Below, one piece after another: positions 42,380 to 55,161 of a stretch of DNA of 64,000 nt. Location: NCBI GenBank assembly GCA_029287535.1, contig JARFQY010000007.1, positions 1-64,000 of the forward strand, given 5' to 3'. Origin of the DNA: Filomicrobium sp. (GTDB lineage Bacteria > Pseudomonadota > Alphaproteobacteria > Rhizobiales > Hyphomicrobiaceae). Numbering within the stretch: the first letter of the stretch is position 1; the number at the start of each line of letters is the position of its first letter. A program made the translations under genes and the position numbers. The notes beneath the pieces were generated by a model that saw only the letters and a program-made list of their open reading frames with translations, did not search any database and had not been told where the DNA came from.

Positions 42380-43318
42380 TCAGGGCAGGTAGCCCTTGTC
42401 GAGGTCCATCTCCTGGCGCGTAATGACGTCACCGTCGGCCGTGACGAGTTCCGCGGTCCAGGCCAAATGCGTCCCGTCTTCAGGCGAGCTTGACGAGACG
42501 AATTGCGCGCCGAGCTGATGACCGGGCTTGATCTCTATCGGCTCTTCGAGTGGGAAATACAGTTGCTCCCAATGCGTCGCCACAGACTCCGGTCCCGTTG
42601 ATAGACTAAGACCAACACCAAGATCGGCCCGCCACCAGACGGCAAACCCATAAATCGTCGCCGGAGACTCAAAGCCCCAGTTAACCTGCCCGGAGCGATG
42701 CGTTTCAGCCTCCTGGCTGAGGTCGACGCGATCCCATTCGCGTTCACCGCACGCAAGAAGCTCACCCGCCTCAAGCCGCCGCACATACACGTTATTGAGG
42801 CTCATCATCTGCGGCAGGCTGAGGTCCAGATCGTACGCTTCACCGGCCTCTTCCCAAAGCCTCAGCTCGGCATCGAGCCGTGGTGCGATGACCGGGCACA
42901 CGCATTGAATAACCTCGCGTGGCAGGACGATGCCGCCAGGGACCAAAAAGCGCCGGCGCGCATCATTCAAGGTTGTGATGATGTCCTCTTCAAACGCGTA
43001 ATTGCCGAGCGTCTCCGAAATGATGACATCGACTTGCGGCGGGTCCTGCATCTCTGTCGAGTGGCACGGCATCAGCACGCAGTTCCGCAGTCCGCTGGCT
43101 GCAATGACGGCTTCCGCGACACCTGCGACTTCCGCAGTCTCGTACAAGAAAACCTCGCGAGCTCCGAGTCGGGAGGCCATGGCTCCAAGCAGGCCGGTGC
43201 CCGCACCGATGTCGGCAACGCGGGTCTTTCCAGGCTCTATGACAGCCTTCAAAGCCTTGTACAGGACGTCGTTGCGCGCCTGGTCTGCGATTAACGTACG
43301 GTGATACTCAATGCGCAT
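42380..43318 (-). CDS. Protein arginine methyltransferase (PRMT)-like SAM-dependent methyltransferase
   Basis: Motif I 'VADIGAGTGLLGAMASRLGAREVFLYE'; 'VDVIISETLGNYAFEEDIITTLNDARRRFLVPGGIVLP' (double-E loop); 'LSTGPESVATHWEQLYFPLEEPIEIKPGHQL' (THW loop). Confidence 0.75.
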   Translation of the reverse strand: MRIEYHRTLIADQARNDVLYKALKAVIEPGKTRVADIGAGTGLLGAMASRLGAREVFLYETAEVAGVAEAVIAASGLRNCVLMPCHSTEMQDPPQVDVIISETLGNYAFEEDIITTLNDARRRFLVPGGIVLPREVIQCVCPVIAPRLDAELRLWEEAGEAYDLDLSLPQMMSLNNVYVRRLEAGELLACGEREWDRVDLSQEAETHRSGQVNWGFESPATIYGFAVWWRADLGVGLSLSTGPESVATHWEQLYFPLEEPIEIKPGHQLGAQFVSSSSPEDGTHLAWTAELVTADGDVITRQEMDLDKGYLP

Positions 43319-43331
43319 CGAAGCGGAACTT

Positions 43332-44171
43332 TCAAAGGCTCAGGTGAGGCCGACGGATTTCGTACAGCGTCAGTGCCGTCGCGACGGCGAGATTAAGGGA
43401 ATCAAGATCGCCGGCCATCGGGATTTTGACCGTTCGCGAACAAGCCGCGGCGAGATCATCCGACAGGCCCGGCCCTTCGCTTCCCATCACAACCAGCACC
43501 GGCCCCCGGTACTTGGCATCCCGAAAATCTTGCGTCGCGGAGAGATGCAGGCCGACGACATCACCGGCCCAATCGGCGCGCCACATCAAAAACGCCTCCC
43601 GCGTCATCCGCACAAGCGGCACGGCGAAGACCGAACCCATGGTGGCCCGGATACACTCGCGCCCGTAAGGGTCACAACAGTTGCCAACCAGGATGACACC
43701 GCTGGCTCCCACCGCATCGACCGTGCGAATGATCGTCCCAAGATTCCCTGGATCACGCACGTCTTCCAAGACCAGCCACAGCCCGTCTTCCGCGATCCGT
43801 TCTGCCTGTGGGGCAACGGACCACCGCTGTTTGAAAACACCGAGAATCGCTTGCGGATTGTCCTTTGAGGCAACCTTCCCCAACACCGCCGGGGTGACCT
43901 CGAGCACCTCGCTATCGGCCTTCAACGCTAATTCAATGAGACCGCGAACAGCCGGGCTTTGGCCCCCGCTCGGTTCGTAGAGCAGCGTCTCGGGCTTCCA
44001 GCCGGCCTCTTGCGCGCTGATCAACACGGAGGCGCCTTCGGCGACAAACAGGCCCGTTTCCCGGCGCACCTTTCGCATGTCGAGCGCCCGGATCGCTTTG
44101 ATCCGCTCGTTTTGCAGACTGGAAATCGGCTTGGGCCCGGAGCCCGCCTTTGGTCCTCGCAAATCACGCAT
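43332..44171 (-). CDS. TrmH/SpoU-family RNA methyltransferase
   Basis: 'ISSLQNERIKAIRAL', 'VLEDVRDPGNLGTIIRTVDAVGASGVILVGNCCDPYGRECIRATMGSVFAVPLV', 'VMGSEGPGLSDDL..VKIPMAGDLDSLNLAVATALTLYE'. Confidence 0.92.
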   Translation of the reverse strand: MRDLRGPKAGSGPKPISSLQNERIKAIRALDMRKVRRETGLFVAEGASVLISAQEAGWKPETLLYEPSGGQSPAVRGLIELALKADSEVLEVTPAVLGKVASKDNPQAILGVFKQRWSVAPQAERIAEDGLWLVLEDVRDPGNLGTIIRTVDAVGASGVILVGNCCDPYGRECIRATMGSVFAVPLVRMTREAFLMWRADWAGDVVGLHLSATQDFRDAKYRGPVLVVMGSEGPGLSDDLAAACSRTVKIPMAGDLDSLNLAVATALTLYEIRRPHLSL

Positions 44172-45078
44172 GTGACGCCCACCGCACGAACAAGGACGTT
44201 GGCACAACGGCGCGACCGTCCTTCGAGCGGATCGCCAGCTCACCGAAATCAATCACGCCACCGGATTTGGTGAATGTCTCCGAAGTGAGCTCTGCAAACG
44301 CAACGGATGAAGCGCGTATGGCGTAGACCGTCAGCACCATCGCCGCGGACTTGGCGCTGGCAAGCCTGGCGCAGTCACTCAATAGCTCCGGCAGATCAGT
44401 GAACAGGTCCCACGTTTCATTCTTGGGCCCACGTCCGAACTTCGGCGGGTCGACAAGAAGGATGTGATAGTCCCGCTCGCGCCGCACCTCCCGAGCGGTG
44501 AACTTTCGGGCATCATCCAGGATCCATCGGATGGGGGCCTCGTCGAGCTTCGAGGCAGCCTGGTTGTCGCGCCCCCACTGGATCGCCTTCTTCGACGCGT
44601 CCACGTGCACGACCTCGGCACCTGCCGCCGCCGCCAGCAACGACGCTGCTCCTGTGTAGCCGAACAGATTCAGGACCCGCGGCCGTTCGATGCCCGCCGC
44701 CTTGACCGCCTCGATCTGTTTCAGCATCCAATGCCAGTGTGGCTGCTGCTCTGGAAACAACCCCAAATGCCACAGGCCCTGCAACCGGCACAGGATCCTC
44801 ACGCCATCAACATCAACGGGCCAGCTGTCGGGCACCGCGCGATCGAGCCGCCATTTGCCCTTTTCCTCATCTTCACCGGAAGCAGAGAACACCGCGTCAG
44901 CCCTTTCCCAGGTCGATCGCGGCAGCCGCGGCTGCCAAAGCGCCTGCGGCTCCGGCCGGTCCACGGTGATTGCTCCGAAGCGCTCAAGCTTCCGCCCGCC
45001 GCCGCTGTCGACAAGCTCATAGCCTGCAAAGCCGCGCGTCTCGATCAAATTGAGATTGTTCCGAACAAGAGGCGTCAT
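44164..45078 (-). CDS. RlmI/RlmK-like class I rRNA methyltransferase
   Basis: 'RVLNLFGYTGAASLLAAAAGAEVVHVDASKKAIQWGRDNQ', 'ILLVDPPKFGRGP'; the downstream TrmH-family ORF starts within its 3' end. Confidence 0.85.
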   Translation of the reverse strand: MTPLVRNNLNLIETRGFAGYELVDSGGGRKLERFGAITVDRPEPQALWQPRLPRSTWERADAVFSASGEDEEKGKWRLDRAVPDSWPVDVDGVRILCRLQGLWHLGLFPEQQPHWHWMLKQIEAVKAAGIERPRVLNLFGYTGAASLLAAAAGAEVVHVDASKKAIQWGRDNQAASKLDEAPIRWILDDARKFTAREVRRERDYHILLVDPPKFGRGPKNETWDLFTDLPELLSDCARLASAKSAAMVLTVYAIRASSVAFAELTSETFTKSGGVIDFGELAIRSKDGRAVVPTSLFVRWASHA

Positions 45079-51867: not shown

Positions 51868-54800
51868 ATGTCAGACAATAAAATGCTTATCGATGCCGCG
51901 CACCCGGAGGAAACCCGGGTCGTGGTACTTCGCGGAGGCCGGGTAGAGGAGTTCGACTACGAATCAGCTGCCCGTAAGCAGCTGCGCGGAAATATTTATC
52001 TTGCCAAGGTGACCCGGGTCGAGCCTGCCCTGCAGGCGGCCTTTGTCGACTATGGCGGGAACCGCCATGGCTTCCTGGCCTTCAACGAAATCCACCCGGA
52101 CTATTACCAGATCCCGGTCGCCGATCGCCTTGCGCTTCTTGAAGAGGAAGCCGCCGAAGCCGTCGAAGACGATGAGATCGAACTGGAAGCCATTGAAAAC
52201 TCCGACAATGGCGACGAGTCAGATGACGCGCCGGATGACGAGTCCGATGACGATGGTCTCATGGATGAGCCCGTCGATCTCAGCACGATCATCGAAGACG
52301 ACGAAGAAGATGACGTGCTCAGCGCCGCTGATGACAGCACCAACCCCGAGGACAACACAGACCTCATCGAAGAAGACGAACAGCGCGATGCCGCTGCTGA
52401 AGACGCAACCGAAGACGGGCCCGGCGAGACGAATTCCGACCCAGCACCGGATGGCGAAGACGATGCCGATGACGATAACAACGGCGATGACGACGACGGG
52501 CGTTCAACAGTGCTGTCGCAGGCCATGCAGCGCGACGAGGCACTGAGCGAGGACCCGCGCGGACAAACCTCGAACGAGTTCGCAGACCATACCGATAGTC
52601 TCAACGAACCCAGCCCAGAGTCCGAAGAATCCGCCTCACAGCCTGCACTGTCGCAAGACGACGACGCACCGCAAACGTTCGCGGCCGAAGACCCTGAGCA
52701 GACGCCGGAGTCAATCAACACGCCAAAGCCCGACTCGGAGGCCGTGGAAACCGAGCAGGACGACGCCAGCTTCGACGATGCCGTATCCGCAACAGCCGAC
52801 GGCGAAGAGGCCGCGACTGAGGCAGATGACGATTCCGAAGAGACCGAGGCACCCACCGGGCGCCGCGGCCGTCGCACGTCTGCTCGTGGCAGCCCCGGCC
52901 GTCGTCGCCGCGGTGGCCGCTCGCGCCGCCAGCGGTCTCGGGACACCGACGTGTCGGGCGACGATGATATCGATTCCGTCGACCAGGTCGGCAACGAGGA
53001 TGCCCTTGAGGAGCTGCCTTCTCGTCCGCGCCGCTCACGCCGCAGCTACAAAATCCAGGAAGTCGTCAAACGCCGCCAGGTTCTACTGATCCAGGTTGTG
53101 AAAGAGGAACGCGGCAGCAAGGGCGCCGCATTGACGACGTATCTTTCGTTGGCAGGCCGGTACACGGTCCTTATGCCGAACACGGCGCGCGGCGGGGGCA
53201 TTTCGCGCAAGATCACCAATCCACAAGATCGCAAGCGCCTCAAAGCCATCGCAGCCGAGCTTGATGTTCCCGACGGTATGGGCCTGATCATCCGCACTGC
53301 CGGCGCTGCGCGCACCAAGCAGGAAATCAAACGAGACTTCGAATATCTCCTGCGCTTGTGGGAGAGTGTCCGCGAGCTCACGCTGCAATCAACGGCACCA
53401 GCGTTGGTCTACGAGGAAGGCGACCTGATCAAGCGCTCGATCCGTGATCTCTATAACAAAGACGTTGATCAGGTCCTGGTGGCCGGCCATGAGGCCTACC
53501 GGAGCGCAAAGAGCTTCATGCGCATGCTCATGCCGAGCCATGCCAAGAACGTCGTGCACTACGAAGAGCCCGAACCGCTCTTCACGGGCCATGGTATCGA
53601 GCGGCAGCTCAATGCCATGTTCAGTCCTTACGTGCATCTGCCATCCGGCGGATACCTGGTGATCAACCAGACCGAGGCACTGGTCGCCGTTGACGTCAAC
53701 TCGGGCCGTTCCACACGCGAGTTCTCCATCGAGGAAACCGCGCTCAACACGAACACTGAAGCGGCTGAGGAAATCGCGCGTCAGCTCAAGTTGCGCGATC
53801 TCGCGGGTCTTATCGTCATTGACTTCATCGACATGGAGGAACGGCGTAACAACCGTCATGTCGAACGGCGTATGCGCGACGCGCTTCGTTCGGATCGCGC
53901 CCGCATTCAGGTCGGGCGGATCAGTCCGTTCGGCCTTCTGGAAATGTCGCGCCAGCGCCTGCGCACCGGTGTGCTCGAAGGTTCGACATCGCCGTGTCCG
54001 CACTGCCAGGGTACCGGCATCATTCGGTCGGTTGAATCAGTGGCATTGGCTGTACTGCGCGGATTGGAAGATACCGTCATGGCCGGCTGCCGGACCTCAT
54101 TGATTGCCAACACCACAGCCGAGGTGGCGCTCTACATACTGAACAACAAGCGTGAATTCGTGATCGACATGGAGAAACGTCTCGCCATGCCGATCGCGAT
54201 CCAAGCCTCCGCCAAAATGGCTGGAGCGAACTTCAGTATCGACAAGGGAGAGGCGCCGGCCGTCACCGCTGCCAAAGACGGCAGCTCGGATGCGATCAGC
54301 GTCGATTGGGGCTTTGAAGGCGGTAAGACCGAAGCTTCCGAAGCCCGTGCAGAAGGTGACGAGGGCCGTTCACGCCGCCGGCGACGGCGCCGTGGTGGCC
54401 GCCGGTCAGACGAACGCCCCGCCGCCGAGAGCATCGAAAGCATCGACGTCGAGCTGGAGGTCGACTTTCAGGCCGTCGCCGATGACGACATGGCACAAGA
54501 CCTGGAAGCAAATGGCGAAGATCAGGAGTCTGCGGAAGAGAGGTCGGGCCGCCGTCGTCGTCGTGGGCGCCGCGGGGGCCGCCGCAACCGCGGCCGCAAT
54601 CGCGATACCGATACCGATACCTTGCTTGCAGATGATGTCGAAGCTGCCGCGGAATTCGATGAAGGCTTCGCGACCCCAAATCTGTCAGACGGCGATCAGG
54701 ACGAAAGCGACAACGCAACGCCTTCGGCTCCCGAAACACCGCCGCTGGCGGCCGCAGGGGAATTGGTCACGCCGATCGAGATAAGATCGGAGATCGGCCA

Positions 54801-55161
54801 ATCGGAGACGGTGGAACCCGGCCAATTTGACACCGAGGCCACCTCCCAGGCGGCGCCGGCTTTCGAAAACAATGGTCAGGCTGTCGACGAGAACGCGACA
54901 CAATCAAGTCCGATGGAGCCCGAGGAAGAGGCCACGCAATACACCGCTGAAGCCGACGGCCGACGCTCGCGCTCTGGACGTGGCGACCCCGTCTCAAGCG
55001 AACCACGCATCGAGCGAATTACGGTTAGCCCCAATGGGCAGACGGCGAGTTCCGACACGGCACCGCCCGCCGAGGCAGATGATGCCGCTGAACAAAGCGC
55101 GCCATCAGAGCAGCCGACCCGGCGGGGCTGGTGGCAACGCAAACTACTTGGCGAAGCCTGA
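51868..55161 (+). CDS. rne: Ribonuclease E
   Basis: 'MLIDAAHPEETRVVVLRGGRVEEFDYESA', 'LVAVDVNSGRSTREFSIEETALNTNTEAAEEIARQLKLRDLAGLIVIDFIDM', Zn-link 'CPHC', Arg-rich C-terminal repeats; about 300-aa acidic insertion within the N-terminal S1 region. Confidence 0.95.
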   Translation: MSDNKMLIDAAHPEETRVVVLRGGRVEEFDYESAARKQLRGNIYLAKVTRVEPALQAAFVDYGGNRHGFLAFNEIHPDYYQIPVADRLALLEEEAAEAVEDDEIELEAIENSDNGDESDDAPDDESDDDGLMDEPVDLSTIIEDDEEDDVLSAADDSTNPEDNTDLIEEDEQRDAAAEDATEDGPGETNSDPAPDGEDDADDDNNGDDDDGRSTVLSQAMQRDEALSEDPRGQTSNEFADHTDSLNEPSPESEESASQPALSQDDDAPQTFAAEDPEQTPESINTPKPDSEAVETEQDDASFDDAVSATADGEEAATEADDDSEETEAPTGRRGRRTSARGSPGRRRRGGRSRRQRSRDTDVSGDDDIDSVDQVGNEDALEELPSRPRRSRRSYKIQEVVKRRQVLLIQVVKEERGSKGAALTTYLSLAGRYTVLMPNTARGGGISRKITNPQDRKRLKAIAAELDVPDGMGLIIRTAGAARTKQEIKRDFEYLLRLWESVRELTLQSTAPALVYEEGDLIKRSIRDLYNKDVDQVLVAGHEAYRSAKSFMRMLMPSHAKNVVHYEEPEPLFTGHGIERQLNAMFSPYVHLPSGGYLVINQTEALVAVDVNSGRSTREFSIEETALNTNTEAAEEIARQLKLRDLAGLIVIDFIDMEERRNNRHVERRMRDALRSDRARIQVGRISPFGLLEMSRQRLRTGVLEGSTSPCPHCQGTGIIRSVESVALAVLRGLEDTVMAGCRTSLIANTTAEVALYILNNKREFVIDMEKRLAMPIAIQASAKMAGANFSIDKGEAPAVTAAKDGSSDAISVDWGFEGGKTEASEARAEGDEGRSRRRRRRRGGRRSDERPAAESIESIDVELEVDFQAVADDDMAQDLEANGEDQESAEERSGRRRRRGRRGGRRNRGRNRDTDTDTLLADDVEAAAEFDEGFATPNLSDGDQDESDNATPSAPETPPLAAAGELVTPIEIRSEIGQSETVEPGQFDTEATSQAAPAFENNGQAVDENATQSSPMEPEEEATQYTAEADGRRSRSGRGDPVSSEPRIERITVSPNGQTASSDTAPPAEADDAAEQSAPSEQPTRRGWWQRKLLGEA

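Follow-up and report, generated by a model that had tools for sequence, protein, structure and literature searches.

A PRMT-type gene downstream of two RNA methylase-like genes

The window, by which we mean the whole 64,000-nt stretch of Filomicrobium sp. DNA analysed, carries on its minus strand, at 42380..43318, an ORF with an ATG start whose 312-aa translation resembles protein arginine methyltransferases (PRMTs). The start codon is kept across homologs, with in-frame stops close upstream. Thirteen nt before this start lies a minus-strand gene for a SpoU/TrmH-family RNA 2′-O-methylase (43332..44171; PF00588, with an MRM3-like substrate domain), and this is overlapped by a further minus-strand gene (44164..45078; PF10672) for a class I SAM methyltransferase resembling RlmI/RlmK, for which the RlmK/RlmI models scored below cut-off.

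The four motif strings quoted in a preliminary description of the locus were all present in the minus-strand translation of 42380-43318, and their conservation was assessed in an alignment of 52 sequences, in which the other members are 38-69% identical to the window protein. Residues 6-15 (HRTLIADQAR; 43274..43303, minus strand) correspond in the PRMT6 alignment to PRMT1 H45..R54, which forms helices alphaY/alphaZ; the segment had been described as 'H..ML.D..R', and its PRMT1 counterpart was indeed found, but the Met48 position is occupied by Leu9 and the segment reads 'H..LI.D..R'. D12 and R15 within it are invariant (52/52). Motif I, the putative SAM-binding element VADIGAGTG (43193..43219, minus strand), contains D36, G38, G40 and G42, which are likewise invariant in all 52 members. 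The double-E loop, S101-E111 (SETLGNYAFEE; 42986..43018, minus strand), carries E102 and E111 at exactly the nine-residue spacing that had been proposed, both without exception in the 52 sequences; T103, L104 and N106 are also invariant and differ from PRMT1, and residue 110 is a Glu as well. Pro133 (42920..42922, minus strand; 52/52), at the Rossmann/barrel junction, occupies the position of the PRMT cis-proline, the result concerning the presence of the proline. A helical barrel insert is predicted at residues 146-174 (42797..42883, minus strand; helices 147-152, 154-161 and 167-174), where the PRMT dimerisation arm belongs, and the THW loop, residues 248-250 (42569..42577, minus strand), has H249 and W250 in all members and Thr in 50 of them, the other two having Ser. 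Taken together, E102, E111, R15, D12, D36, the motif I glycines, P133, H249 and W250 show no variation in the alignment, and motif I, the post-I acidic residue, the double-E pair and the THW-type loop are invariant or nearly so. The structural study of TbPRMT6 (PMC3911951) names the junction cis-proline, the alphaZ Arg and the THW His as PRMT features.

Sequence, profile and fold comparisons place the protein in the PRMT family

Using phmmer with the single sequence against solved structures, the best PDB match was PRMT6 (E=2e-30 over residues 3-284), followed by dozens of further PRMT chains (PRMT8, 1, 4, 2, 3, CARM1, 7, 9 and 5), and a 20-row family profile reached E=9e-39. The Pfam model PRMT_C (PF22528) matched the window protein over residues 146-276 with 33.7 bits against a cut-off of 27, and matched 52/52 scanned members at E 0.001 or better. 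At the sequence level, the motif match is far past what chance would be expected to give.

The AlphaFold model built with the 52-sequence alignment had a mean pLDDT of 95.2 and a pTM of 0.91. The predicted elements follow the PRMT order, with the Rossmann fold, the SE loop after strand 96-101, the barrel strands and three helices within 147-174, and THW is placed just ahead of predicted strand 252-263. Structural comparison with PRMT folds had been named in the preliminary description as the check on its assignment; in the Foldseek search with this model, PRMT6 (E=5e-28, TM 0.81) and CARM1 (TM 0.85) aligned over the whole chain, and among the matches listed the best 50 were all PRMT6 or CARM1, with the beta-barrel and dimerisation arm included and no PrmA-like top match. 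Relative to the nearest ortholog, dN/dS was about 0.13-0.15 (dN 0.14, dS about 1), indicating purifying selection. The earlier proposal of a bacterial PRMT-family enzyme is therefore supported by the sequence and profile matches, the predicted fold, the unvarying catalytic residues and the purifying selection, and on sequence and model grounds the predicted PRMT-fold enzyme was confirmed as a full-length PRMT relative.

The family departs from type I PRMTs at the active site and the N-terminus

The eukaryotic type I enzymes PRMT6, PRMT1 and CARM1 are about 25% identical to the window protein over the whole length and share with it the Rossmann domain, barrel, arm, double-E Glu pair, THW, alphaZ Arg and junction proline. 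In type I enzymes a YFxxY helix precedes the H-E-E-M-L segment, as is visible in the PRMT1 and CARM1 sequences. This N-terminal alphaX helix was absent family-wide, all homologs beginning at the H45-equivalent segment. Since many homolog loci have an in-frame stop 1-8 codons upstream, the helix was not lost to annotation, and an N-terminal extension through an alternative start was ruled out by the same stops.

The type I double-E consensus is SExMGxxLxxExM (PMC12153873), and the counterpart in the window protein, SETLGNYAFEEDI, does not match it. The position of PRMT1 Met48 holds Leu, Met or Ile in 41, 6 and 5 of the 52 members, respectively. Both active-site Met positions are thus aliphatic in the window protein, being Leu and Ile, and SEWMG is replaced by SETLG, whereas the eukaryotic enzymes have SEWMG and the two Met residues. 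Because the YFxxY helix is missing, SEWMG reads SETLG and both Met positions are aliphatic, the sequence does not single out one product type.

The type II enzyme PRMT5 was compared in the same way. Its SELLGSF recalls the SETLGNY of the window protein, and PRMT5_C of Pfam matched 51/52 members, the window protein itself falling below cut-off; however, PRMT5 has FSW where the window protein has THW, its N-terminal TIM barrel is missing here, and the PRMT5 profile match was far weaker (2e-17 vs 9e-39).

The family forms a separate clade among bacterial and eukaryotic PRMTs

A tree of 57 sequences, in which the eukaryotic references had been taken from PDB records or compared with them, recovered the window family as one clade with 100/100 support, outside the PRMT1/6/CARM1 clade and outside the clade of PRMT7/9 and TPR proteins. 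Joining the family to the eukaryotic type I clade was not rejected (p-AU 0.22 and 0.46); with its long branches, the tree is compatible with more than one position of the family relative to the PRMT types. Since the clade stands separately on the tree, a recent transfer from eukaryotes appears unlikely.

Other PRMT kinds were found in bacteria. The bacterial TPR-PRMT proteins, which are PRMT9/PRMT7-like, likewise have a PRMT core with a double-E loop and [T/S/N]HW, but are 500-700 aa long with N-terminal TPR repeats and cluster with PRMT7/9 and not with the window family. Six alphaproteobacterial proteins of this build (L102, L104, L106, L107, L111 and L113; about 500-600 aa, with N-terminal TPRs and a C-terminal PRMT core) had their best PDB PRMT matches in PRMT9-type chains, PRMT9 also having TPRs, and fell on the PRMT7/9 side of the tree. 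A different type came from each of two single-contig genomes, both from one further family within the same phylum: L115 (SEWMGHCLFYEAML) groups with eukaryotic PRMT1/6/CARM1 and L116 (NELIGDFGTDE) with PRMT5, and these are possibly host-derived genes. A further alphaproteobacterial PRMT-like clade (L117, L118 and L119) has a double-E loop like CDHIGYFGFDYGI and no THW; it seems to have kept the PRMT fold with the guanidinium-binding residues lost, and may perhaps act on another substrate. Predicted PRMTs without known function are also described in Legionella (PMC10117894), which are likened here by description as bacterial PRMT genes and not by sequence.

Distribution and gene neighbourhood

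One copy of the gene was present in 90/103 Hyphomicrobiaceae genomes (69/76 among the better ones), with no internal stops. Named carriers comprise Filomicrobium, Hyphomicrobium and further Hyphomicrobiaceae, scattered Gammaproteobacteria (HdN1, Stenotrophobium) and Candidatus Peribacteria/Peregrinibacteria. In the class containing one Peribacteria carrier, the gene was found in 8/117 genomes, and the Peribacteria carrier genomes measure 1.2-1.4 Mb. Across 399 sampled genomes of the phylum, any PRMT-like match at 1e-20 was obtained in 21. Because nearly every member of the Hyphomicrobiaceae has exactly one copy, some arginine is probably methylated in this family.

Among the 75 loci with enough sequence, the SpoU gene lies directly upstream of the PRMT gene in 40, at a median gap of 4 nt, and is accompanied by the RlmI-like gene in 39 of these 40, in the order RlmI-like, SpoU, PRMT. 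The same three genes stand in a row (L089:5074-6918) at L089, whose protein is 43% identical to the window protein; there, a further gene follows the PRMT gene, its start overlapping the PRMT stop. With this exception, no conserved neighbours were found in distant members. The gene order points to putative co-expression with RNA modification in many genomes and not to a biosynthetic cluster. Roughly half of the loci lack the operon, as do nearly all distant members, which makes the link to translation weak; the gene order does no more than hint at a substrate tied to ribosomes or RNA.

RNase E is not favoured as the substrate

The RNase E encoded in the window at 51868-55161 had been described as having an RRGG-rich tail and as a conceivable substrate. 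Two RRGG boxes were confirmed in its Arg-rich tail. Across the order, such boxes turn up independently of the PRMT gene, and relatives lacking it have the same boxes (e.g. G011, G017, G023, G032, G045, G046 and G054). Between carriers of the PRMT gene and non-carriers, no difference was seen in the number of RRGG boxes per RNase E tail, the counts being rough, each of the three regexes having missed some loci and a few rows being short spurious ORFs. Being general in the order, such a tail is no evidence for the PRMT of the window, and RNase E is not favoured as its substrate.

Proposed function and alternative readings

We propose that the window protein is a cytosolic arginine N-methyltransferase of the PRMT fold. 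SAM would be held by the Rossmann domain via motif I, E102 and E111 would grip the arginine guanidinium at the pocket, R15 would order the active site, and H249-W250 of the THW loop would complete it, while the inserted helices would make a PRMT-type homodimer. A methyl group would thereby be placed on a guanidine nitrogen of arginine in a cellular protein, giving monomethyl or asymmetric dimethyl arginine; because the gene is often in the RNA-methylase operon, the substrate protein would most likely be tied to ribosomes or RNA. From these comparisons we infer catalytic activity, the dimer, a protein as substrate and the translation link; taken as a whole, the proposal seems to us reasonably probable. 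Within it, the protein is very probably an active PRMT-fold enzyme, judged from sequence and model, and acts most likely on protein arginine.

A narrower claim, towards which the preliminary description leaned in naming type I hallmarks, is that the protein is a true type I PRMT, which would place asymmetric dimethylarginine on RGG proteins including RNase E. The double-E and THW loops are present, PRMT6 and CARM1, both type I, are the closest among solved structures, and grouping with the eukaryotic type I enzymes, which the best tree does not show, is not rejected. However, the two loops do not define type I as had been assumed, since both also occur in other PRMT types; the YFxxY helix and the SExMG consensus are missing, Met48 is unmatched, the later Met is Ile, and RNase E RRGG tails are alike with and without the gene. 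The type I assignment is thus only partly supported, and this reading is doubtful.

The main rival to a protein-directed PRMT is an N-methyltransferase of free arginine or a small guanidine like SznE, which makes N-omega-methyl-L-arginine for streptozotocin. There is a precedent in SznE/StzE, an arginine-guanidino methyltransferase from bacteria (PMC11705231), and a distant relative of SznE served as the marker of a different antibiotic cluster (PMC12637814). The window family also lacks the type I N-terminal lid, and the shortened N-terminus could open the pocket to a small molecule. SznE/StzE is alike in being a bacterial arginine methyltransferase but differs in its free arginine substrate and its antibiotic cluster, being set apart here by description and not by sequence. 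Against such a role, conserved biosynthetic neighbours were not found around the window family, where the genes nearby are RNA methylases, prfB and one for a penicillin-binding protein, or show no conservation; near-universal single copy and the small-genome Peribacteria carriers speak more for a core function than for secondary metabolism; and the dimerisation-arm region is retained. We regard this rival as unlikely.

A catalytically dead PRMT relative with a structural or regulatory role could be suspected from the family-specific residues by the active site (T103, L104 and L9), but the SAM- and guanidinium-binding residues are invariant from Alphaproteobacteria to Peribacteria, which makes this very improbable. 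That the protein is a PrmA-like enzyme or a generic class I methyltransferase whose PRMT loops are only superficial is scarcely credible, for although the PrmA Pfam model also scored above cut-off, through the Rossmann part, the full-length PRMT6 match including the barrel, the PRMT_C match of every member and the listed PRMT6/CARM1 Foldseek matches refute PrmA-type identity at the fold and sequence level.

Implications for arginine methylation in bacteria

Protein arginine methylation is viewed mainly as a eukaryotic modification, and to our knowledge predicted bacterial PRMTs are mostly without known function. The open literature yielded no work on a PRMT from Hyphomicrobium or on the window family, subscription journals being outside the search. 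What is new here, as judged from the sequences, is a clade of putative bacterial PRMTs that are encoded by a core gene and lack the N-terminal helix; the PRMT fold itself is known. Roughly nine of ten genomes of a family with cultured species (Filomicrobium insigne, Hyphomicrobium facile and H. zavarzinii) have one copy of a PRMT whose catalytic set is intact, and such a minimal PRMT without the N-terminal helix would be useful for probing the role of that helix. We advance more tentatively, at somewhat less than even chances, the fuller view of a bacterial PRMT lineage not recently derived from eukaryotes, a family core enzyme kept also in small-genome Peribacteria, which would use a lidless site to methylate the translation machinery. 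The window family is relevant to the question of a bacterial origin of PRMT diversity, and if the fuller view holds, protein arginine methylation would count in parts of Bacteria as a housekeeping modification native to them.
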